From contig CAIMFA010000839.1 of the NCBI GenBank assembly GCA_903840185.1, positions 1 to 34,040 of the forward strand: a stretch of 34,040 nucleotides of DNA. Reading direction: 5' to 3'. The translations under genes and the position numbers were made by a program. Every line of letters starts with the position of its first letter. Within the stretch, counting starts at the first letter, position 1. Under the pieces are notes generated by a model. That model had not been told where the DNA came from, ran no database searches, and was given only the letters and a program-made list of their open reading frames with translations. Source of the DNA: an uncultured Lentisphaeria bacterium (GTDB taxonomy: Bacteria; Verrucomicrobiota; Lentisphaeria; Victivallales; Victivallaceae). Positions 1 to 12,531 of the stretch are shown piece by piece.

Positions 1-1450
1 CGCCTTTCCTGACGCTGCCTTTGTCTTTTACACAAAGCTCGCTGAGAAACCCGTCCGTGCGCGCATAAATCATATTCGACACGGCCGGTTTCACTTCACA
101 GGGAATCGAAATATTCCACGGCAGCGGCATAAACAACGTCAGCAGCAGCACTCCGGCGCCGGACAGCGAAATAATATAATTACGCGTTTTAATTCTGTTC
201 TTCAATGCCAAAATCATTTTGGTTTCCATCATGAGCGGCTTGACCACCAGTAAATAGACTTCAAGCATCAGCAGTACGATGCCGATAGCTTTTTCGAAGT
301 AATAATATACTACCATAATGATTGAGGTATAAAGAAAAATTCGATAGAAGAACCCCGAAATCCCGAAAATAATTAAAAAATATTTTTTCCAGCCCTGAGT
401 GTTATCCGAAGACTTGTAGTCAACTCCGAGACAATATTTCCGGAAAAGTTCACGGATGCGCTCGGTTCCGCGCATCTGAAGATTGTCAATGTTGACCAGG
501 TCCATCAACAGGTAATAACCGTCATAACGGATGAACGGGTTGCCGTTGATCAGCGCCGTGCTGATGATACTTACCGTGAAAATGTAATACGCGACAGCCT
601 GGGTCAGGCCCGGCCCGGAGTTCGCCCACACCAGCGCCGCCCATCCGCCGATAATGATTTCACTCAGAATGCCGGAGCCGTCAATCAGAAATCTTTTATG
701 CCGGTCTGGAATACGCCAGGAATCAGTAAGGTCGGTGTAAAGTCTGGGGAAAAACACAATGAAAGCCATGCCCATCCGCCGCACCCGGATGCCGACGGCT
801 TTGGCGGTGTACGCATGCGCAAATTCATGAACACACTTTATAATGACAACCGCAATCGAATAGCGCACCATCCCTTGAAAATTAATCGTATTGATAAATT
901 CTTCAGTCAGTTTCTGCCATTTGACGATCAGGCAGATATAGCCGCAGCCGGCAATCACGCCGAGCGTCAGGAATGTCCATTTGTTGAAAATCGCCTTTAT
1001 CGTGTCCACAGTGCGGTCAAGAAAGCGGTCGGGGGAAAGCAGCGGTATTTTGAAAAACAGATAGGTATAAAGCAGCAGATTGATGAAATTCCGCCGTTTC
1101 ATCACCTGATGTTTCTCCACCTTCTCCTCGGTCATCTTGTATACCGGAAGCATCAGATTGCTCTGATTTAAAAAATTCAGGACTTTGAGGATTTTCTCTT
1201 TATCCGCATGTATGCCGCGATTCTTTACTTTCGCCAGAAAAGCTTCCAGTTCCAGGTTTTCAGACATACAGCCGATGATCTGGTGGTCTTCTTCGGAAAG
1301 GCGGAAATATTTGTCGCTCACCGGATCGAAAACGATCCAGGTGGCGCTGCCGTCAGTCTCAGGTTCCCCCCGGAAAAGTTCGAGATCAGTGCGCAGTGTT
1401 CCGGTGTAATATTTCCGTTCCGGAGCAGGGCTGTCAGATGTGTTGTCCAT
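1..1450 (-). CDS. M50-family (site-2-protease-like) membrane metalloprotease with PqqD-like N-terminal domain and start of a C-terminal HlyD/biotinyl-lipoyl-like region; partial, runs off window start
   Basis: Hand translation of minus strand from ATG at 1450 (MDNTSDSPAPERKYYTGTLRTDLELFRGEPETDGSATWIVFDPVSDKYFRLSEEDHQIIG...) stays open to position 1. Contains VHEFAHAYTAKAVG (HExxH) and NGNPFIRYDGYYLLMDL (NxxPxxxxDG), both M50 hallmarks. Absent from the ORF track because it has no stop in the window. Confidence 0.85.
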   Translation of the reverse strand, partial: MDNTSDSPAPERKYYTGTLRTDLELFRGEPETDGSATWIVFDPVSDKYFRLSEEDHQIIGCMSENLELEAFLAKVKNRGIHADKEKILKVLNFLNQSNLMLPVYKMTEEKVEKHQVMKRRNFINLLLYTYLFFKIPLLSPDRFLDRTVDTIKAIFNKWTFLTLGVIAGCGYICLIVKWQKLTEEFINTINFQGMVRYSIAVVIIKCVHEFAHAYTAKAVGIRVRRMGMAFIVFFPRLYTDLTDSWRIPDRHKRFLIDGSGILSEIIIGGWAALVWANSGPGLTQAVAYYIFTVSIISTALINGNPFIRYDGYYLLMDLVNIDNLQMRGTERIRELFRKYCLGVDYKSSDNTQGWKKYFLIIFGISGFFYRIFLYTSIIMVVYYYFEKAIGIVLLMLEVYLLVVKPLMMETKMILALKNRIKTRNYIISLSGAGVLLLTLFMPLPWNISIPCEVKPAVSNMIYARTDGFLSELCVKDKGSVRKG

Positions 1451-1471
1451 GCGTTTTCAGGTCCTTGCGGT

Positions 1472-2896
1472 TTAAACCCGTCTCCACCACAGCACGAGAT
1501 TCCGGAAGAGGTAATAGCCGAGCGGCACCCGCGGCCCGGCGATCCTGGCTACGCCGCGCATTCCGCAAAGCAGATTTTTCTTCTCATAATTCATCGTCAT
1601 CCGGATCATATAGCAATAAACTTTTTTCTCGGTAAGAACCGGTTTCGGACTGATGGACTCGATTTTTCCGGAGATCGGCATTTCCGGCATGGTATGCAGA
1701 TATAGTGTAACTTCGCAGTTATCGTCCAGTGCGGAGGCGTTCTGCTCATTCACCGCAATCAGCGCGACCAGGTTTTCCGTGGACAATATTTCAAACAGTT
1801 TTTCTCCGGCCCGGACGGCTTTGCCTTCGAGCTTATCTTTATCGGCGATATCCAGAATACCGGCCTGTTTGGCGCGTACCACGCTTTTTTCCAGAAACCA
1901 TTTATTGCGCCTGATGCTGATATCCGCTTTTTCTTTCTGGAGTTCAAGCATCCGGACTTCGCCGCGCTTGGAAATATCTTTGAACGACTGCTGCTCAATC
2001 AGATCCAGTTGCGCGGAAATTTTATTGCGGGCGTTTTCCGCTCCTGCCAGATCAAACGCGCGTTCTTCGGTGTTGTATGCCAGGATGACAGTGCCCGGCA
2101 CGACGCTGTTGCCGCTTTTATTGTTGTAGCATGTTTCAATTACGCCGTCGAACGGAGCATAGTAGTAATTCTCTTTGGCCGGCATGATCTCGAAATCCGC
2201 CGCCACGTTCTGCCTGACGGGCATTACAAACAGGGAAATAAAAAACAAGCCGGCCAGAATCAGCAGTATACGCGAAGGTTTCAGCCACTTCTTGCGATCA
2301 ATCACCCGGTGAATGATCTTCTTCTGCTTGTCATGCATGGCGAAAAATAAAGCTTCGGAATAGTGCTGGCACAACAGCGGCAGCAGGCTGCCGGCGCTGG
2401 CCAGATTGGCGCTGTCTGAAAATTCCACCGCCCAGATCAGCAGCTCATGGGAGGACGTTCCGCCATGCGAAGCCGGTCTGACGGGAATCAGCAGCATTTG
2501 CGGGAAACAGGCTTGAAAATATTCAAACGCGTCCAGCGCGCTCTGTCTGGCATTTTTCTCTTTGAGCAGATCTTCCGTAAGCACCGTAACCTTGTCCAGT
2601 CCGTCAAGCGGTTGAATCAAGTTTGCCAGATGAATACAGTATTCAGAGTTGGAATTTACATCCGGCTGGCCGGAGACCGCAATTATTTTCGGTTTGGCGC
2701 CGCGCATGTCAATCAGCGCGGAACGTTCATACGGTGCCACCATCCGGCTGTTATTGACAATGTGATTGGCCAGCTGCTGCAGAGTATGTTTCTCGAAAGC
2801 TTCATGGCCCAGTTTCAACACTGCGGAAATGGCGTTCAGCTTGCCTTTCAGCAATAATAACTCTTTATGCTCTTTTGTGGATTGAGATTCCGGCAT
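1472..2896 (-). CDS. HlyD-family efflux/secretion adaptor with N-terminal GAF-like domain
   Basis: 474 aa ORF; N-terminal ~180 aa soluble GAF-like region, one TM (ILLILAGLFFISLFVMPV), then HlyD-like beta-barrel/coiled-coil (YYYAPFDGVIETCYNNKSGNSVVPGTVI...). TAATG overlap with the upstream ORF. Confidence 0.75.
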   Translation of the reverse strand: MPESQSTKEHKELLLLKGKLNAISAVLKLGHEAFEKHTLQQLANHIVNNSRMVAPYERSALIDMRGAKPKIIAVSGQPDVNSNSEYCIHLANLIQPLDGLDKVTVLTEDLLKEKNARQSALDAFEYFQACFPQMLLIPVRPASHGGTSSHELLIWAVEFSDSANLASAGSLLPLLCQHYSEALFFAMHDKQKKIIHRVIDRKKWLKPSRILLILAGLFFISLFVMPVRQNVAADFEIMPAKENYYYAPFDGVIETCYNNKSGNSVVPGTVILAYNTEERAFDLAGAENARNKISAQLDLIEQQSFKDISKRGEVRMLELQKEKADISIRRNKWFLEKSVVRAKQAGILDIADKDKLEGKAVRAGEKLFEILSTENLVALIAVNEQNASALDDNCEVTLYLHTMPEMPISGKIESISPKPVLTEKKVYCYMIRMTMNYEKKNLLCGMRGVARIAGPRVPLGYYLFRNLVLWWRRV

Positions 2897-3777
2897 TATT
2901 TTTTCCCGCTGTTTTTGTCATATTGCTTCATCAGCTTGCCGGACATTCCCGCCGCAAGCTTCCGGTCGCGGTTGTCCAGGAGAACTTTTATTTCAAATGT
3001 CCGGCTGCCGGGATCAATTTCGCCGGAAATCACATTGATGGTTCCTTCGTGTTCGGTTCTGGTCTCGTCAATCCAGACCCGCATTCTTTTGCCGATAGCC
3101 ACTTTATTGATTTCGGAGGAAGGCAGGTGCATCACCGCCAGCAGCTGGTAATCGTCAATGATATTAATCACCTGCTGGCTGGCGCGGACAAATTCATGCT
3201 CCTGCACCAGTTTCTTAATCAAACGTCCGGCAAACGGCGCGACCAGACGGCAGGCTTTCAAATCTATTTCCGCCATTTTCATATTCGCGACGGAAAAATT
3301 CAATTTTGAAGTAGCGATATCCCTTTCCAGTTCACTTTTTTCCAAATCCTGCATGCCTTGAATGCCCTTTTGATACATTTCCTCATTGCGCTTGAAATTT
3401 TTCAACGCAAACTGCATCGAAGCGTCAGCCTCAAGCTGCGCGGATTTGGCTTTATCGTATTTCTGGAGATAAATTTTATCATCAAGCAGAGCAATCACAT
3501 CACCCCCCTTGAAGCAATCCCCCTCTTTGAAATTATATTGCATGACCGCCGTGTCAACTTCAGCCGAAATCACCGCCTGGCGGAATGGGAAGATAACGAC
3601 TTTGGTCGGATATTCATCCGCTGCCGGCATGTCCTCGACGGCGGCAAATCCATTTAACGGTGCAATCCATAGCAGACACAATCCAGGCAGACAAGCCGCG
3701 AAAGCCAGTCCGGCAGCATTGCAATTACCCAGTAATAACCGGAATAAACGATTCATTTCCAAGACCTTTCTGTTCAT
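2896..3777 (-). CDS. RND/HlyD-type periplasmic membrane fusion protein
   Basis: 293 aa; N-terminal signal/TM, coiled-coil hairpin, LVAPFAGRLIKKLVQEHEFVRASQQVINIID lipoyl motif, DPGSRTFEIKVLLDNRDRKLAAGMSGKL typical of AcrA/HlyD adaptors. Confidence 0.85.
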   Translation of the reverse strand: MNRKVLEMNRLFRLLLGNCNAAGLAFAACLPGLCLLWIAPLNGFAAVEDMPAADEYPTKVVIFPFRQAVISAEVDTAVMQYNFKEGDCFKGGDVIALLDDKIYLQKYDKAKSAQLEADASMQFALKNFKRNEEMYQKGIQGMQDLEKSELERDIATSKLNFSVANMKMAEIDLKACRLVAPFAGRLIKKLVQEHEFVRASQQVINIIDDYQLLAVMHLPSSEINKVAIGKRMRVWIDETRTEHEGTINVISGEIDPGSRTFEIKVLLDNRDRKLAAGMSGKLMKQYDKNSGKK

Positions 3778-4028
3778 GTAAAATCAAAGTAATATAACCA
3801 TTATTTCCGCAAAATGCTTTAGTTGTTTAAAAATTATCGCGGTTTTTTCTTCACCGCTCCGATGCTTGAAAAGTAATTGCCCGCAATGAGTGATTTTTTA
3901 TAAAAAACTCGTTTGCAAATTAAATTTTTAATGTTATGTTCTAGTTGTTTTATATTGGTTATAGAATAATCTTATTCTTATTATGAATGTAATTAAACCT
4001 AAAAAATAGATTGTTTCAGGAGAGAAAA

Positions 4029-4283
4029 ATGGACAACATCAAAAAAGAAATCTTCGCTGACGGAATCGGGCAGATTCATTTTGCCGGCGGTATGGTAAGA
4101 TTTGATTTCGTTACCCTGCAACCCGATCCCGACGGCAAAGGCGAGCCGCAACCCCTTTGTAAAGAGCGCATTATTATGCCGCCGCAGGGTTTCCTGAACG
4201 CTTTTAATTCGATGCAGAATCTTATCGACAAACTTCTTGAAGCCGGGATTCTTCAGAAAACGAATAACGCAGCGACGAAATAA
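4029..4283 (+). CDS. Small conserved-looking hypothetical protein (~84 aa) of the export locus
   Basis: ORF 4011..4283 opens with TTG; the ATG at 4029 has a good Shine-Dalgarno (CAGGAGAG) just upstream, so MDNIKKEIFADGIGQIHFAGGMVRFDF... is the preferred start. Confidence 0.7.
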   Translation: MDNIKKEIFADGIGQIHFAGGMVRFDFVTLQPDPDGKGEPQPLCKERIIMPPQGFLNAFNSMQNLIDKLLEAGILQKTNNAATK

Positions 4284-4334
4284 GGGTAGAACTTATTTAA
4301 ATGTAGTCAGAGAAATCCAGGAAGCGGGGCTGTT

Positions 4335-5999
4335 ATGTTAAAAGTATTTCGTTTAGTAATTGCTTTAGCTATAGCAATGGTGGCGTTCGGATGTCATGAT
4401 TCTGAATATTACCGCCAGCAGCGTGTCGAAAAAGCCAACGAACATTTCGGGAAGATCAATAAGAAAGTTATTCCCCAGGGCACGGTTTTTACCCTGCCTG
4501 AATGTATCTCCATCGCCCTGAAGCAGAATCTTGACTTGAAAGTCTTTGACTTGAAGGAACGGATTGCGCAGGAAAAAGTTACCGCTGAAATGCTCGGCAT
4601 GCTTCCTGACTTGACTGTATCTGATGACGCCACCGGCAGAAACAACGAGCCGGGTTCGAGCAGCCAGAACCTCCAGACCGGTGCTCAGACTTATCCCCCG
4701 AGCAAAAGTTCGGATAAAGGCGAAAATGTATTCCGGGTTGAAATGGCGCTCAGCGTGCTTGACTTCGGACTTGCTTATTTGAACGCCAATCAGGCTGAAG
4801 ACAATGCCCTTATCGCGCTGGAGCAGAAACGCCGCGCCGCGCAGAACCTGACCCTGGACGTCGTCAAAACATATTTCAAAGTCGCGGCCACCCAGGATGC
4901 CATTGAAACTACCGAAAAACTGCTGGTCAAATGCAAAAATATTGAAAAAGTATTTGCCGAGATCAGTGATTCCAAATCCGTCTCACCGCTGCGTCTGCTT
5001 GATGAGAGAAAGAGATTTATCCGGCTGGAAAAACGCCTGATGGAATATCAGCGCAGTTACCAGAACTCCTGTATTGAACTGCGGGCGCTGATGGGTTACC
5101 TCCCGATTGATGATATCAGAGTTGATACCAGAGCGCTGCAGAAAATGAACGTCATCCAGCTTCCAGACATCAATCTGCTCGAGAAGATTGCGCTGATGGA
5201 ACGCCCGGAACTGTATCAGCTTGACATTGAAACCAGCGTTACGGTTACCGAAGCCAGAAAAACCATTCTGATGATGTTCCCGAACGTCAAAGTGTTCACT
5301 GACTTTACTAATTCCAGCAACTCGTTCCTTTACAATCAGAGCTGGTGGGAAATCGGCATGAGAGCCGCGTACAACCTGTTGAAGCTCCCGCAGCAGATCG
5401 CTAAATACCGCACCATCAATACTGAGATTGACGAAATCTCGCTCAGAACACTGGCGCTGTCCATCGGGGTCATGTCACAGGTGCGTATTGCCCATGCCAA
5501 CGTGATTGAAGTTAAAGAACGCTTCGATCTTGACGAAAAAGTTTATCTGGCGTATGCCGACCATCTGAAGATTGCGCGCCAGAACTTCACCGCCGGCGGC
5601 GCCCTCTCCAAGCTGGAGCTGGACCGCATGGAACTGGAAACCGCGGAAACCCAGATTGACCGCACCCTGGCTCTCGGCAATTATTACCTCTCTTATTACC
5701 GCATGCTCAATACTATCGGCGTTCAGGCGCTGGATCAGAAGACCCTTGACCGCCTGATCGAAGAAATCAAGCTTTCCGAAGCGAAAGCCAAAGCGGAAAC
5801 CGAGCAGAAGCAGAAAGCCGCGGAAAAGGCCAGAGAGGAAATCAACAAGAACGTTGTAACATTCAACGGCGTGGTGCTGGGCAATAATACAATTCCGGAT
5901 GGCAGCAGAGAAAAGTTTGATATCATTGTCCCGGAAAAACCGGCGGACGCAAAGAAACCCGCAGCCGATACCAAGGCCGCCCCAGCTGCCAAAAAATAA
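4335..5999 (+). CDS. TolC-like outer membrane efflux lipoprotein with Ala/Lys/Pro-rich C-terminal tail
   Basis: 554 aa; lipobox-like VAFGC, then LPECISIALKQNLDLKVFDLKERIAQEKVTAEMLGMLPDLTVSD, typical OEP repeat architecture. Confidence 0.85.
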   Translation: MLKVFRLVIALAIAMVAFGCHDSEYYRQQRVEKANEHFGKINKKVIPQGTVFTLPECISIALKQNLDLKVFDLKERIAQEKVTAEMLGMLPDLTVSDDATGRNNEPGSSSQNLQTGAQTYPPSKSSDKGENVFRVEMALSVLDFGLAYLNANQAEDNALIALEQKRRAAQNLTLDVVKTYFKVAATQDAIETTEKLLVKCKNIEKVFAEISDSKSVSPLRLLDERKRFIRLEKRLMEYQRSYQNSCIELRALMGYLPIDDIRVDTRALQKMNVIQLPDINLLEKIALMERPELYQLDIETSVTVTEARKTILMMFPNVKVFTDFTNSSNSFLYNQSWWEIGMRAAYNLLKLPQQIAKYRTINTEIDEISLRTLALSIGVMSQVRIAHANVIEVKERFDLDEKVYLAYADHLKIARQNFTAGGALSKLELDRMELETAETQIDRTLALGNYYLSYYRMLNTIGVQALDQKTLDRLIEEIKLSEAKAKAETEQKQKAAEKAREEINKNVVTFNGVVLGNNTIPDGSREKFDIIVPEKPADAKKPAADTKAAPAAKK

Positions 6000-6515: not shown

Positions 6516-7229
6516 TTATTTGAAGCTTCCTGTTTCAATAAAGCGCAGCGCCGCTCGGCGGACTGACGGCAGAAACATCATGAAAGAATGTTCAGCGCGA
6601 ACAATGATATGATCTTTCTGGGTCGCCAGTTTGGTCAGGCAGATAGCCACTTCAAAGTCATATTTCCCGGCAATTATACCGATTTCGACACTATCCGGAA
6701 CCGGCACGGAGTGAACGTAGGCGCCAGCTGCGCTGCTCAGTTCCGGCAGCGGTTTAAGCAGGTTCCCGGACACCGGCAGCAGCTTAAGCAGTATCTTTGC
6801 GGCATACGATCCGAGATTGGGCGGTGCCAGCATCACAATCCGTTTGATCCTGTCCGGCGTAAGCGCCTCGCCGGTCCAGTCGTTACCGGCGGCCAGATGT
6901 CCGAGCGCTTCGCGGGTGACAATCCCGCCGAGACTGTGGGTGACGATATTGATTTTCATCTCCGGCGGACTTTCGCGGACTATTTTTTCCAGAAACAGCT
7001 TAAAGTCACCGGCGTGACGGCTGATTGTCTGCATAGAAGTATGGTAATCATAAATGTATACTGCAAAACCGGCTTTGCGGAAAAACCTGGCCAGGGAATA
7101 GAGATAAAAACTGCGGTGAATCAGCCCGTGAATCAGCACCACTATCTCATTCCGGTCGTTTTCAGGCGCCGGCGGCAGATAATAGTTGTATCTTTTGCCG
7201 GCAAAAAAATCTTTTAAATCTTTAAACAT
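6516..7229 (-). CDS. Alpha/beta hydrolase (lipase/esterase-like)
   Basis: Motifs VVLIHGLIHRSFYLYSLARFF and NIVTHSLGGIVTREALGHL (G-x-S-x-G-like nucleophile elbow). ORF extends to 7259, but the internal Met (MFKDLKDFF) near 7229 is a more plausible start, overlapping the preceding gene's stop. Confidence 0.8.
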   Translation of the reverse strand: MFKDLKDFFAGKRYNYYLPPAPENDRNEIVVLIHGLIHRSFYLYSLARFFRKAGFAVYIYDYHTSMQTISRHAGDFKLFLEKIVRESPPEMKINIVTHSLGGIVTREALGHLAAGNDWTGEALTPDRIKRIVMLAPPNLGSYAAKILLKLLPVSGNLLKPLPELSSAAGAYVHSVPVPDSVEIGIIAGKYDFEVAICLTKLATQKDHIIVRAEHSFMMFLPSVRRAALRFIETGSFK

Positions 7230-10200
7230 CATTATTCTCCACGGCCATCTCCGCGGCAATTTTTTTCAGTTCCGTAAAATCCAGTTTGCCGCTGCCGAGC
7301 ATCGGAATTTCCTCCACATAGTAAAAGTTTTCCGGGCGCGGAATCCACAGATTCGGCAAATCACGGCTCCGCAGTTCCCTGACAATATTTTGCGGGTCAA
7401 GCGTCTTATCCGAGTAAATGACGACCAGCTTCTCGCCTTTTTTACTGTCTTCCGCTCCGCACACCGCGATGCAGCGCGTTTCGGAGTGAATTATCTCATT
7501 GATCTCCTTCTCCAGCAGCTCATGCGGCACCATTTCCCCGGCAATCTTGCTGAACCTGGAAAGCCGGCCGGTGATAGTAATATAACCCCGGTCGTTCATG
7601 TGCGCAATGTCGCCGGTAAGATACCAGCCGTCACGGATGACTTCGGCGGTCTTTGCCGGGTCGTTAAGATACCCCTGCATCACGGTCGGCCCTTTAACGA
7701 CGAGCAGGCCGTCAATATCCGGCGGACGGAGTTCAAATGTATCCGGATCAACGATTTTAGCGCAGATGCCGGGCATCGGCGTGCCGATGCTGCCCCGTTT
7801 GCCGACGCTGGTGCCCAGGTCGAGAACCGAACTGGCGACGTTGATCGAGACCACCGGCGAGAGCTCGGAGCAGCCGTAGCCTTCGGCCACGGCAAGACCC
7901 GTCATTTCCTGGAACTTGTCGGCGATGTCGTTGCGCAGCTTCTCCGCGCCGCTGATCACCAGCCGGAGCGAGGCAAAGTCTTCAGGATCGCAGCGGCGCA
8001 TGTATGCCTGCAGAAACCCGGGAGTAGCCATCAGCGCTGTCAGTTTATTGTTGCGGATCGCCTGGCCGACGGTCTGCGCGTCCAGCGGGTTGGGAATGTA
8101 AACCACTTCCGCGCTGTAAACGATCGGCAGCCACAGACAGACCGTCAGACCGAAGGAATGAAATATTGGCAGATTGCCGACCACCTTGTCCGAATTCCGC
8201 CAGTTCATGATGCGGATGAACGAAAATAAATCGCTGTTGATGTTGTGGTGCGACAGCATGATCCCTTTCGGGATGCCGGTGGAGCCGCTGGAGAAAATCA
8301 CCACGCCGGTGCGGTAGACGTCGCGATGGCTGACCGGCGAAAGCAGTTTCATCAAAATTACCCGCGGTATCAGCAGCGCCGCCAGGAACGCCTGAATCTT
8401 TTTAGCCTTCGTGATCTTCGGTGCGAATCCCTCCAGAAACACCATCTGCGGAAACGGCTCCATTTTCAGTTTGGCTAAAAACATTTTACTTGTCAGAATG
8501 CAGTGCAGTCCGGCCTGTTCAATGGCGATGCGGTTGGATTCGCGGGATGCGGTGAAATTAAGCAGGGCCGGTACTTTATCAGCCATCATCACCGCCAGGA
8601 CGGAAACCGCCGCCGCCGCGCAGTTCGGCATCATCACGCCGACATATTTATCCTCCGCCGGGGCCAGCTTGCGGATTTCCCGGCTCAGCAGCATGGCCTT
8701 CACGAACAGCGGCAAATTGCGGAATTCCTTCTGTTCGGCGCCGTTGAACTCCTTGATCAGTTTGCGGAACGGATGCCGCGTCGCCTGCCAGGCGAACTGG
8801 CTGTGCAGCGGCCGTTCATGTCCGTCAGGGATGCGCTCCGTTTCGGCGGCCATTTCCGACAGCACCAGCCGTATCTCGTAACCGGAGAGATCTTTGCTCA
8901 TCGGTTTGCCGATGGTGATCGAGGCCGGATGCCGCAATTGCAGCGGCATCCGCAGCTTTATTTTACCGTAATAATAGGTGAAAATAAATCCCCACAGCAT
9001 CCCCAGCCGCACCGGGATCACCGGCACTTCCAGTTCGGGCGGTATCATCGAGGAAATACCTTTCCGGAAGTTCATCATAATCCCGTTGCGCGTGATCCCG
9101 CCTTCCGGAAAAACACAGACGATTTCGCCTTGCCGCAGCAATTCATGCGTCTTCAGGAAAAGCTGATGCAGCTGTTTAGGCTTGGCCGCCGGAACTTCAA
9201 TAAATCCCGCCCACTTCACAAACGGATACAGCCAAGGATAGCGGTAGAAGGTTTCATGCATCATAAAATGCACCGGCCGCGACGTGCAGCGCGAAATCAG
9301 CAGCGCATCAACAAATGAAACATGGTTGGCCACCAGCAGCACCGGCCCCTCCTCCGGAATATTCTCCTCCCCGTAAGTCCGCACCCGCAGCAGCGTATGC
9401 GAAAGCACCAGCCCCGCCAGCCGCCACAAAAACCGCGGCTCCCGCCAGAATACGACAAGCGCGAATAAAACAGCGAAAGCCAGAACACTCCAAAAGCAAT
9501 ATCCAACAGACTTATTGCCGTTGGCTTCAATTGCGAGTAATATACCAGCAAATAAAAGAAATGTTATCATTGTTGCAATGCTCTGAATAGCAAAAAAACG
9601 ACATCGACGTGCAGCATCTATAAATCGTAGCTGGTATGCTCTAACAGGAGTCAACGCCAAGCTGGCAAAAGCCCAAAGAATTGCAGAAAACAACAATGCT
9701 GGAAACATAGATATATATACAAGCATTGGAAAAATAATCATGCCAGCCAAACCAAGTGGAACTAATCCTAACTCAACATGACCGCGCGAAAGACGTGTTG
9801 CCGCGAAACACCCAACAACCATTCCTAGTATTTGTGACATTAGCATATAGACCGCACTTGATCGTGAAGAAAAAGATGCCCCAAAAACACCCAAAGCATA
9901 GATTTGAAAAAACAATAATGCTCCAATAATATATGCTTCTATAAGGATGAGTATCGGAATCATGCGGGCACTGGGCTCATTATATGGAATTGGTTTGCTT
10001 TCAACGGACTTTACGCATGGTATTTTTATAGCGAAAAATAGATCAATTATTGCAAATGCAATCCATATGCATCCAGCAGTACATGTCAATTTATCAAAAT
10101 AAAACCCTGTAATTGAACCAATAATTATAGCGGTAAAATTTACAAAAAGAAATATTCCAGCTATTTTTGAATATGCCTTCATTGGAAAAATATCTGGAAT

Positions 10201-10569
10201 TACACCTTTTATTGCCACAGAGCAAGCTACATTTTCGAGGCCTAACAGAAACACAAGAGAAAGTAATATCGGAAATACACCGCCTTTAAAAAAACTCAGA
10301 CAGCAACTAAATATAAAGAGAAAGATTATAATTTCACATAGCTTCGCTTTAACAATAAAACTCTTACAGGCAATTTGAATATTATAAAAACGAATAATCC
10401 ATGGAAATATCAGGAATGGCGCAAAATAACATCCTAACACAGCGAATACAAAAAGTGAAGAACCATCAGTTGGAATAGAGAATATACATGTAAACACACT
10501 AACCGTACTGCAGAAAGCCATTCCGGCGAATGGGAAGATGCTGGCTTGACTAGGTTGGTTCTCTGCCAT
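7222..10569 (-). CDS. aas: Aas-like trifunctional protein: MFS (LplT-like) transporter + PlsC acyltransferase + acyl-ACP/AMP-forming ligase
   Basis: 1115 aa. N-terminal ~12-TM MFS; VANHVSFVDALLISR (HxxxxD of PlsC), VFPEGGITRNG; FSSGSTGIPKGIMLSHHN AMP-binding motif and GWYLTGDIAHMNDRGYITITGR ligase motif. Confidence 0.88.
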   Translation of the reverse strand: MAENQPSQASIFPFAGMAFCSTVSVFTCIFSIPTDGSSLFVFAVLGCYFAPFLIFPWIIRFYNIQIACKSFIVKAKLCEIIIFLFIFSCCLSFFKGGVFPILLSLVFLLGLENVACSVAIKGVIPDIFPMKAYSKIAGIFLFVNFTAIIIGSITGFYFDKLTCTAGCIWIAFAIIDLFFAIKIPCVKSVESKPIPYNEPSARMIPILILIEAYIIGALLFFQIYALGVFGASFSSRSSAVYMLMSQILGMVVGCFAATRLSRGHVELGLVPLGLAGMIIFPMLVYISMFPALLFSAILWAFASLALTPVRAYQLRFIDAARRCRFFAIQSIATMITFLLFAGILLAIEANGNKSVGYCFWSVLAFAVLFALVVFWREPRFLWRLAGLVLSHTLLRVRTYGEENIPEEGPVLLVANHVSFVDALLISRCTSRPVHFMMHETFYRYPWLYPFVKWAGFIEVPAAKPKQLHQLFLKTHELLRQGEIVCVFPEGGITRNGIMMNFRKGISSMIPPELEVPVIPVRLGMLWGFIFTYYYGKIKLRMPLQLRHPASITIGKPMSKDLSGYEIRLVLSEMAAETERIPDGHERPLHSQFAWQATRHPFRKLIKEFNGAEQKEFRNLPLFVKAMLLSREIRKLAPAEDKYVGVMMPNCAAAAVSVLAVMMADKVPALLNFTASRESNRIAIEQAGLHCILTSKMFLAKLKMEPFPQMVFLEGFAPKITKAKKIQAFLAALLIPRVILMKLLSPVSHRDVYRTGVVIFSSGSTGIPKGIMLSHHNINSDLFSFIRIMNWRNSDKVVGNLPIFHSFGLTVCLWLPIVYSAEVVYIPNPLDAQTVGQAIRNNKLTALMATPGFLQAYMRRCDPEDFASLRLVISGAEKLRNDIADKFQEMTGLAVAEGYGCSELSPVVSINVASSVLDLGTSVGKRGSIGTPMPGICAKIVDPDTFELRPPDIDGLLVVKGPTVMQGYLNDPAKTAEVIRDGWYLTGDIAHMNDRGYITITGRLSRFSKIAGEMVPHELLEKEINEIIHSETRCIAVCGAEDSKKGEKLVVIYSDKTLDPQNIVRELRSRDLPNLWIPRPENFYYVEEIPMLGSGKLDFTELKKIAAEMAVENNDV

Positions 10570-11343: not shown

Positions 11344-12531
11344 TCAAATATTGAACCACGGCAGTACCTTGAAACCCTGCCTGATATAGCTCTCTTCTCC
11401 GCCGTAAACCAGAGCGCCGGATTTTATGGATGTCATTTCCTGCCACAATTTCAGTCCGTTGAACATATCCGAGGCGATTGTGGCGCCGGATTTAATTTCG
11501 ATTGGATACAGTTTTTCTCCGTATCCAATCACAATATCAATTTCATGTCCGGATGAATCGCGCCAATAGTAAAGTGGCGGCTCGGTTCCCATGTTGAAAC
11601 ATTCTTTGGCCAGTTCCGCTACCACTAGCGTCTCAAAAATCGCGCCTCTGCTGCTGTGGCTCACCAGTTCTCCGGAAGTGCGGATTCCAAGCAGGTAACA
11701 GAGCAGGCCGGTGTCAATGAAATACAGTTTTGGACTTTTGATTATCCGCTTGTTGAAATTTTGATAATACGGTTGCAAAGTCATAACGATAAAACTGGCT
11801 TTCAATACGGACAACCAGCGTTTGACCGTAACCATGGAAATTCCGCAGTCAGCGGCAAGCGAGGAATAATTCAGAATCTGTCCGGAGCGTCCGGCGCAAA
11901 GCCGGAGAAAACGCTCAAAAGTCTCAAGATCGCCGATGTTAATCAGATTTCGCACATCCCGTTCAAGATAAGTTTGCGTATACTGCCCCAGCCAGTCAAA
12001 GGGGGAATAGCCCCGGTCATGCACTGGCGGGTAAAAACCGCGCTGCATGACCTGGTTAAGCTCGAGACTGTCCGGTTTCTTCTCCGTTTTTTGCTCGCTG
12101 AATGCAAATACGTCCATCGGGGCATAGCCGGCAAGTTCGCGCAGCGAAAACGGCAGCAGATGAAATATTGCACAACGTCCCGCCAGTGACTGGGAGACGG
12201 CTTCCATAAGGAGAAAATTTTGCGATCCGGTAAGAATGAAACGCCCGGGAATTTTTTCCGCATCGACAATCGGCATCAGATAAGAGAATAATTGAGGCAC
12301 GCGCTGAATTTCATCCAGAATGACCGGAGTTTTGAACTGGGCAAGAAAACCGTTTGGATCTTCAATCGCAAAATTACGGACATCCGGTTTTTCCAGATTC
12401 ACATAAGCGTAGCCTTTGAATAAATCAAGACAAAGAGTAGTTTTACCCGATTGCCTGGGGCCAGTCAAAGCGATAACCGGATATTGCGCAACCGCTTTTT
12501 TTAACGCTTCGGCAAGAAAACGTTTAATCAT
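11344..12531 (-). CDS. AAA-family ATPase with C-terminal DUF4143-like domain
   Basis: Walker A ALTGPRQSGKTTL; VILDEIQRVPQLF; LTGSQNFLL; C-terminal YYWRDSSGHEIDIVIGYGEKLYPIEIKSG nuclease-like DUF4143 signature. Confidence 0.9.
   Translation of the reverse strand: MIKRFLAEALKKAVAQYPVIALTGPRQSGKTTLCLDLFKGYAYVNLEKPDVRNFAIEDPNGFLAQFKTPVILDEIQRVPQLFSYLMPIVDAEKIPGRFILTGSQNFLLMEAVSQSLAGRCAIFHLLPFSLRELAGYAPMDVFAFSEQKTEKKPDSLELNQVMQRGFYPPVHDRGYSPFDWLGQYTQTYLERDVRNLINIGDLETFERFLRLCAGRSGQILNYSSLAADCGISMVTVKRWLSVLKASFIVMTLQPYYQNFNKRIIKSPKLYFIDTGLLCYLLGIRTSGELVSHSSRGAIFETLVVAELAKECFNMGTEPPLYYWRDSSGHEIDIVIGYGEKLYPIEIKSGATIASDMFNGLKLWQEMTSIKSGALVYGGEESYIRQGFKVLPWFNI

Follow-up and report, generated by a model that had tools for sequence, protein, structure and literature searches.

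The window, meaning the whole stretch of DNA analysed here, is the entire contig C839 (34,040 bases) from a 6.05-Mb draft genome (G000). Analysis of its open reading frames (ORFs) with Pfam and NCBIfam found all five genes of the locus at the positions given in a preliminary description (Table 1). The genes for a periplasmic adaptor (MFP), a second adaptor (GAF-HlyD) and an M50 metalloprotease all lie on the minus strand, divergent from a small ORF (SMALL) and the gene for a TolC-family lipoprotein. An HlyD adaptor and a TolC outer-membrane protein are both present in the locus by Pfam and NCBIfam. The finer details reported earlier, namely a TAATG overlap, the HEFAH and NxxPxxxxDG motifs, a small 84-amino-acid (aa) ORF and a TolC-like lipoprotein, were confirmed as well; the TAATG, at 2894-2898, is the MFP stop overlapping the GAF-HlyD start. 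Contig C839 ends at window position 1, and the M50 gene is therefore truncated. A promoter and terminator scan of the divergent spacer gave signals at chance level. Two other minus-strand ORFs of the window encode a 1,115-aa Aas-like fusion (7222-10569), in which a membrane part without a Pfam match is joined to a PF01553 acyltransferase and a PF00501 AMP-binding domain, and an ATPase with AAA_14 plus DUF4143 (11344-12531).

Table 1. Features of the export locus in the window
Feature	Position	Strand	Evidence
M50 intramembrane metalloprotease with N-terminal PqqD-like (tentative) domain, cut by contig end	2..1450	-	Pfam PF02163, 2.5e-7
M50 motifs	within 2..1450	-	HEFAH and NGNPFIRYDG
GAF-HlyD adaptor (GAF part by homology only)	1472..2896	-	Pfam HlyD_3, 1.3e-11; HlyD_D23
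RND-type periplasmic adaptor (MFP)	2896..3777	-	NCBIfam RND_mfp TIGR01730, 145 bits (cut-off 94.9)
SMALL, conserved 84-aa protein with paralogues elsewhere in the genome	4029..4283	+	AGGAG just 5' of ATG
TolC-family outer-membrane lipoprotein	4335..5999	+	Pfam OEP, 1.5e-26; lipobox VAFGC

We compared the truncated M50 protein, whose closest named matches are from uncultured Lentisphaeria, with full-length homologues, mostly 665 to 767 aa long. In the alignment, both the zinc motif (HExxH) and the NxxPxxxxDG motif are intact in nearly all family members, including that of the window. The homologues end in a third HlyD-type adaptor half, in which Pfam detected HlyD_3 in 12 of 15 proteins and which matched MacA and EmrA profiles in a profile search. 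An AlphaFold2 (AF2) model of a 709-aa homologue from the same genus had a mean pLDDT of 80 and a pTM of 0.49, so the individual domains can be trusted more than the way they are arranged; the best PDB matches of the adaptor half were MexA and AcrA. Because full-length M50 relatives carry this C-terminal half, the machine would thus have three adaptors: the HlyD half of the M50 protein, GAF-HlyD and MFP. A Foldseek search with the whole model returned only adaptors among the matches listed and was uninformative on the N-terminal domain. The preliminary description had called that domain PqqD-like. It gave a weak match to NCBIfam NF050069 (PqqD; E = 1.7e-4; 21.5 bits, cut-off 110), and the model has a beta-beta-beta-alpha-alpha-alpha topology; however, a PDB profile search with the domain did not find PqqD and returned weak PNGase matches only. 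Together, these results give weak support to a PqqD-like domain.

In the second adaptor, Pfam detected no GAF domain. The window protein is nevertheless homologous (hhalign 3.3e-29) to the GAF-HlyDs of a distant variant of the locus (see below), in which Pfam does detect GAF; the earlier assignment therefore holds by homology to these proteins, while Pfam finds no GAF in the protein itself.

To follow the genes across relatives, we used a set of 61 genomes (that of the window and 60 relatives). M50 was present in 36 (one by a weak match), GAF-HlyD in 33 and TolC in 35. GAF-HlyD occurred in 33 of the 36 M50-positive and in none of the 25 M50-negative genomes (Fisher, 4e-14). The five-gene set is conserved across Lentisphaerota and found also in Desulfobacterota, and a genome scan located relatives of the M50 protein in Desulfobacterota, Planctomycetota and Proteobacteria. 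In G130 (L269, 8827-11397) the system is decaying, with M50 broken and MFP shortened, and this genome has no exact match to the tag described below.

The preliminary description had also stated that no ABC or RND pump is visible in the locus, and had named a pump encoded just left of the window in the same operon as a finding that would refute its proposal. No RND-sized gene adjoins MFP in the window or in the same-genus loci L067 and L068, and no HlyB/LssB-type ABC transporter was found in the window or to the left of M50 in same-genus genomes. In both L067 and L068, M50 ends the operon and the next gene lies on the opposite strand; this neighbor indicates that no pump stands to the left of M50 in these two genomes, and the refuting case named earlier was not borne out.

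In the relatives, giant ORFs were found between TolC and MFP-GAF-HlyD-M50, or adjoining TolC. Gene calls were made by codon usage on draft assemblies, and the giants are often cut by contig ends. Most encode proteins of 1,000 to 7,300 aa that contain DUF4347, a domain with passing mentions only in the open-licence PMC literature. The giants share an N-terminal tag, LE[DE]R[VI]LF[DE][AG]AA (fuller consensus, [MI][FY][QRK]LE[DE]R[VI]LF[DE][AG]AAA..[DE][IV]), from which a low-complexity linker leads into DUF4347. Conserved acidic residues break the hydrophobic core of the N-terminal stretch, which makes it look unlike a Sec signal peptide; the mean hydropathy of the giants' N-termini exceeds that of average N-termini, in a test that did not cleanly separate them from signal peptides. 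Many giants also carry a C-terminal tail, FKSDxExLLDE. Among the 1,090 ORFs of the analysed loci whose 3' ends are complete, 13 have this tail. All 13 are giants of Victivallis or rumen Lentisphaeria operons or a split piece of one. The gene order is TolC-giant-MFP-GAF-HlyD-M50 in Victivallis and rumen Lentisphaeria and TolC-giant-M50-MFP-GAF-HlyD in Desulfobacteraceae, whose giants begin with MKLE[DR]RIVLDGAA. In G020 (L065, 4621-16633), one giant is broken into three consecutive frames of 1183, 2523 and 270 aa; assembly frameshifts or decay of the gene are the probable cause.

We searched whole genomes for the tag with a degenerate DNA pattern that has, by our own count, about 34 bits of specificity. 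In the relatives' set, the tag was detected in 26 of the 36 M50-positive genomes and in none of the 25 M50-negative ones. All 40 called ORFs with a match have the tag at residues 4 to 25, and a TolC homologue lies directly upstream of 24 of these 40. The search was extended to a phylum sample of 388 genomes, in which M50 proteins were split into close and distant types at a gap in E-values (close type below 1e-180, next group at 1e-105). Close-type M50 was present in 34 of 35 tag-positive genomes (Fisher, 1e-38), and reversed-pattern controls gave zero matches in the same sample. In G124, the sole exception, the gene after TolC is tagged and runs into a contig end. Because the genomes are not independent, these p values overstate the association; a genus-level test (8e-7) and the covariation of tag and M50 inside two genera that have both M50-positive and M50-negative members (p = 6e-5) are fairer measures. 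We counted against a role of the giants as cargo that 10 M50-positive relatives, some with incomplete genomes, lack an exact tag match. The exact pattern misses variants such as LEERIYFDGAA in G042, and counts of M50-positive, tag-negative genomes are therefore upper bounds. In G403, from another order of the class, a close-type M50 set occurs with a tagged giant (L255/L256), while the other sampled members of its family have neither, which suggests that machine and cargo were transferred horizontally together.

The genome of the window itself contains one exact tag match. It starts a 7,285-aa ORF on another contig (C684:5463-27320, minus strand), the candidate cargo of this genome, in which DUF4347 is detected and PMP-type and beta-helix repeats are matched more weakly. 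The C-terminus of this ORF, HPAFKSEVEILLDKLLAS, is the tail of the operon-type giants. Just upstream lies a 268-aa ORF with a degenerate tag, together with a second copy of SMALL.

From the linkage of tag and gene set, we consider that the genes of the locus probably specify the envelope components of an export (or surface-display) machine dedicated to very large proteins tagged with LE[DE]R[VI]LF[DE][AG]AA. The same data weigh on a different reading, in which MFP and TolC are orphan small-molecule efflux parts that serve RND or ABC pumps elsewhere and M50 is an adjacent stress-signalling protease. MFP and TolC proteins are common to many pumps, and the MFP of the window scores above the RND_mfp cut-off. 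However, the M50 protein has an adaptor half of its own, GAF-HlyD is confined to M50-positive genomes, and the set shows linkage to tagged giants rather than pumps; we regard an efflux role as very improbable.

The preliminary description had placed the M50 protein at the center of a machine for peptide or protein maturation and export that spans the inner and outer membranes. The conserved export set agrees with a machine of this extent, but the RiPP-type side of the proposal was not supported, as no leader/core precursor was found. In a RiPP-like system, SMALL or another peptide would be the precursor, PqqD the recognition element and M50 the leader protease. Among NCBIfam families, M50 best matches the daptide and YydH/LiaK proteases, with which it shares an M50 membrane protease core, and the PqqD signal, weak as it is, points the same way, as does SMALL, a neighbor of the machine that is present in several copies, some of them in tandem. 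In contrast to these proteases, the window-type M50 falls far below the equivalog cut-offs (146 bits against 300), carries an extra HlyD half and has no identified precursor peptide; no maturase was seen in the window locus either. SMALL itself was rejected as a RiPP precursor. It is conserved along its full length in the alignment, with no leader plus variable core, and its AF2 model (beta-beta-beta-alpha, pLDDT 84) looks folded. Furthermore, homologues occur in 51 of the 61 genomes, including 19 of the 25 M50-negative relatives, and SMALL is therefore not tied to M50. We thus judge RiPP maturation improbable and consider giant tagged proteins the most likely cargo.

Members of the SMALL family are mostly 65 to 95% identical across the order and occur as tandem and dispersed copies, with paralogues in L079 (5469-4579, four in tandem), L093, L094 and L097. 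Copies also adjoin C39-type ABC transporters and stand just upstream of giants. A paralogue lies beside a type I ABC transporter (C39-like domain) and HlyD in L090, L097 and, in the genome of the window, on contig C264 (L094, 6097-8987); this SMALL-adjacent exporter is widespread in the order, independent of M50. Searches of Pfam, NCBIfam and the PDB gave no convincing relative of SMALL, and a fold search gave weak PC4-like matches only (E = 0.14). A DUF3467-like identity was considered and received no support from Pfam.

We then turned to what could drive export. The preliminary description had termed the locus ATPase-less. This is true of the window locus and, for the candidate motors tested, of the complete genome of zth2 (G011), but not of certain rumen operons that contain a type I ABC transporter or of the distant variant with its extra SecA. 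G000 and nearly all of its relatives have a single SecA locus, and additional SecA pieces are fragments of split genes; one SecA was also found in the Desulfobacteraceae that carry the M50 set. With one SecA per genome, SecA2 was rejected as a hidden motor in Lentisphaerota. A C39-type ABC transporter was rejected as an obligatory motor because it is uncorrelated with M50. The zth2 genome encodes a single SecA and lacks a close C39-type ABC exporter. Its reduced locus retains M50, TolC, SMALL and a tagged protein of 269 aa but not GAF-HlyD. The 269-aa protein, encoded between TolC and M50 (L108, 9202-10011), is the only exact tag match in this genome and is perhaps a minimal cargo. The missing GAF-HlyD and the restriction of the tag to so short a protein were counted against the export of giants.

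The main rival to a dedicated machine comes from rumen and gut Lentisphaeria. Seven of their loci (L151, L153, L155, L157, L158, L257 and L258) have an ABC transporter, HlyD, TolC, the tagged giant, MFP, GAF-HlyD and M50 in a row. A classical type I system (C39-type ABC transporter, HlyD and TolC) could therefore move the giants C-terminus first, leaving M50, MFP and GAF-HlyD only to process, anchor or sense the N-terminal tag. The systems that secrete giant adhesins by HlyB/HlyD/TolC are alike in having adaptor and TolC-type parts, a very large repetitive cargo and a conserved C-terminal tail, and the genome of the window has its own C39-type exporter on C264. Unlike them, the window locus has no ABC transporter, has three adaptors, one of them fused to M50, and is associated with a shared N-terminal tag. 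In addition, a close homologue of the ABC transporter is absent from M50-positive zth2, G012, G049, G057 and G060, whereas many M50-negative genomes have the exporter, and no ABC gene lies inside the Desulfobacteraceae operons. On balance, transport by a type I system appears unlikely, though less so than a RiPP-like role.

Kamneva, Poudel and Ward (2015; PMC4452313) described a locus of a secondary SecA_DEAD protein, Peptidase_M50, GAF-HlyD and HlyD, and proposed a secretion function with SecA2 as the ATPase and M50 as the membrane pore. They named no cargo and called the biological role "completely unknown"; the earlier remark that the substrate of such gene sets is poorly defined was thus a fair one. 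The two loci share homologous M50-HlyD and GAF-HlyD proteins, MFP, often an outer-membrane OEP protein, and the lack of an ABC transporter. They differ in that the window locus and genome have no secondary SecA, in the placement of their M50s in separate clades, in the tag (LE[DE]R here, LEPR-XLL there), and in the single, degenerate GAF-like region and the regular presence of SMALL and TolC in the locus described here. The distant variant is of this 2015 locus type: in our sample, extra SecA_DEAD proteins are encoded beside distant M50s (24 to 27% identity) or elsewhere in the same genome; G065, a small draft with a distant M50, has one SecA fragment only. A tree of M50 proteins separated the two variants with full support, though its inner placements are unsure because of some long branches, and the M50s of Lentisphaerota and Desulfobacterota formed a separate clade without extra SecA.

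The distant variant has tagged giants of its own. Of the 23 genomes in the 388-genome sample that encode LEPR-XLL proteins (NF012209), 22 have a distant M50 (Fisher 2e-25). A distant M50 stands within 15 kb of 11 of the 37 LEPR hits, against 0.25 expected for an assumed 4.5-Mb genome. The pairings are unmixed: close-M50 genomes have no LEPR match and distant-M50 genomes no LEDR match. Both kinds of giant start with a short LExR-x-L tag, and the two tags are in register; a Lentisphaerota giant scored 8.6 bits with NF012209 (cut-off 17), against 33.5 for a Betaproteobacterial giant in L174. LEPR-XLL-type giants have open frames of up to 20,466 aa in the sample.

In the export machine that we favor, the M50-HlyD protein would sit in the inner membrane, where its N-terminal domain (tentatively of PqqD-like fold) would receive the tagged N-terminus of the giant. 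The protease site may cut the tag or release or gate the giant, and the HlyD half, GAF-HlyD and MFP would form a periplasmic conduit to the TolC lipoprotein. We infer direct recognition, cleavage, the direction of transport and the energy source of this machine. A more tentative proposal is that it may be a secretion system of its own kind. The PqqD-like/M50/HlyD protein would be its inner-membrane gate, which would read an N-terminal LExR tag and hand chains thousands of residues long on to TolC. In Lentisphaerota and Desulfobacterota it would work with no dedicated ABC or SecA2 motor; a sister branch would rely on a dedicated SecA2 and on the LEPR-XLL tag.

The association would give the machine described in 2015 (PMC4452313) a candidate cargo, and it would give a candidate receptor to the LEPR-XLL-type tags, which are carried by some of the largest proteins of bacteria. 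In their share of huge proteins, Lentisphaerae rank among the richest bacterial groups (PMC11573180). We found no earlier link between tag and machine in open-licence PMC papers, and one may have been reported elsewhere. The proposal can be tested in a deposited strain that has the system, Victivallis vadensis DSM 14823, in which we found three M50 loci of this kind. An M50 about 60% identical to a Victivallis-like M50 was also found, adjoining an LEDR giant, in a record titled Planctomycetota (L142), which is either a mislabelled bin or a case of gene transfer.
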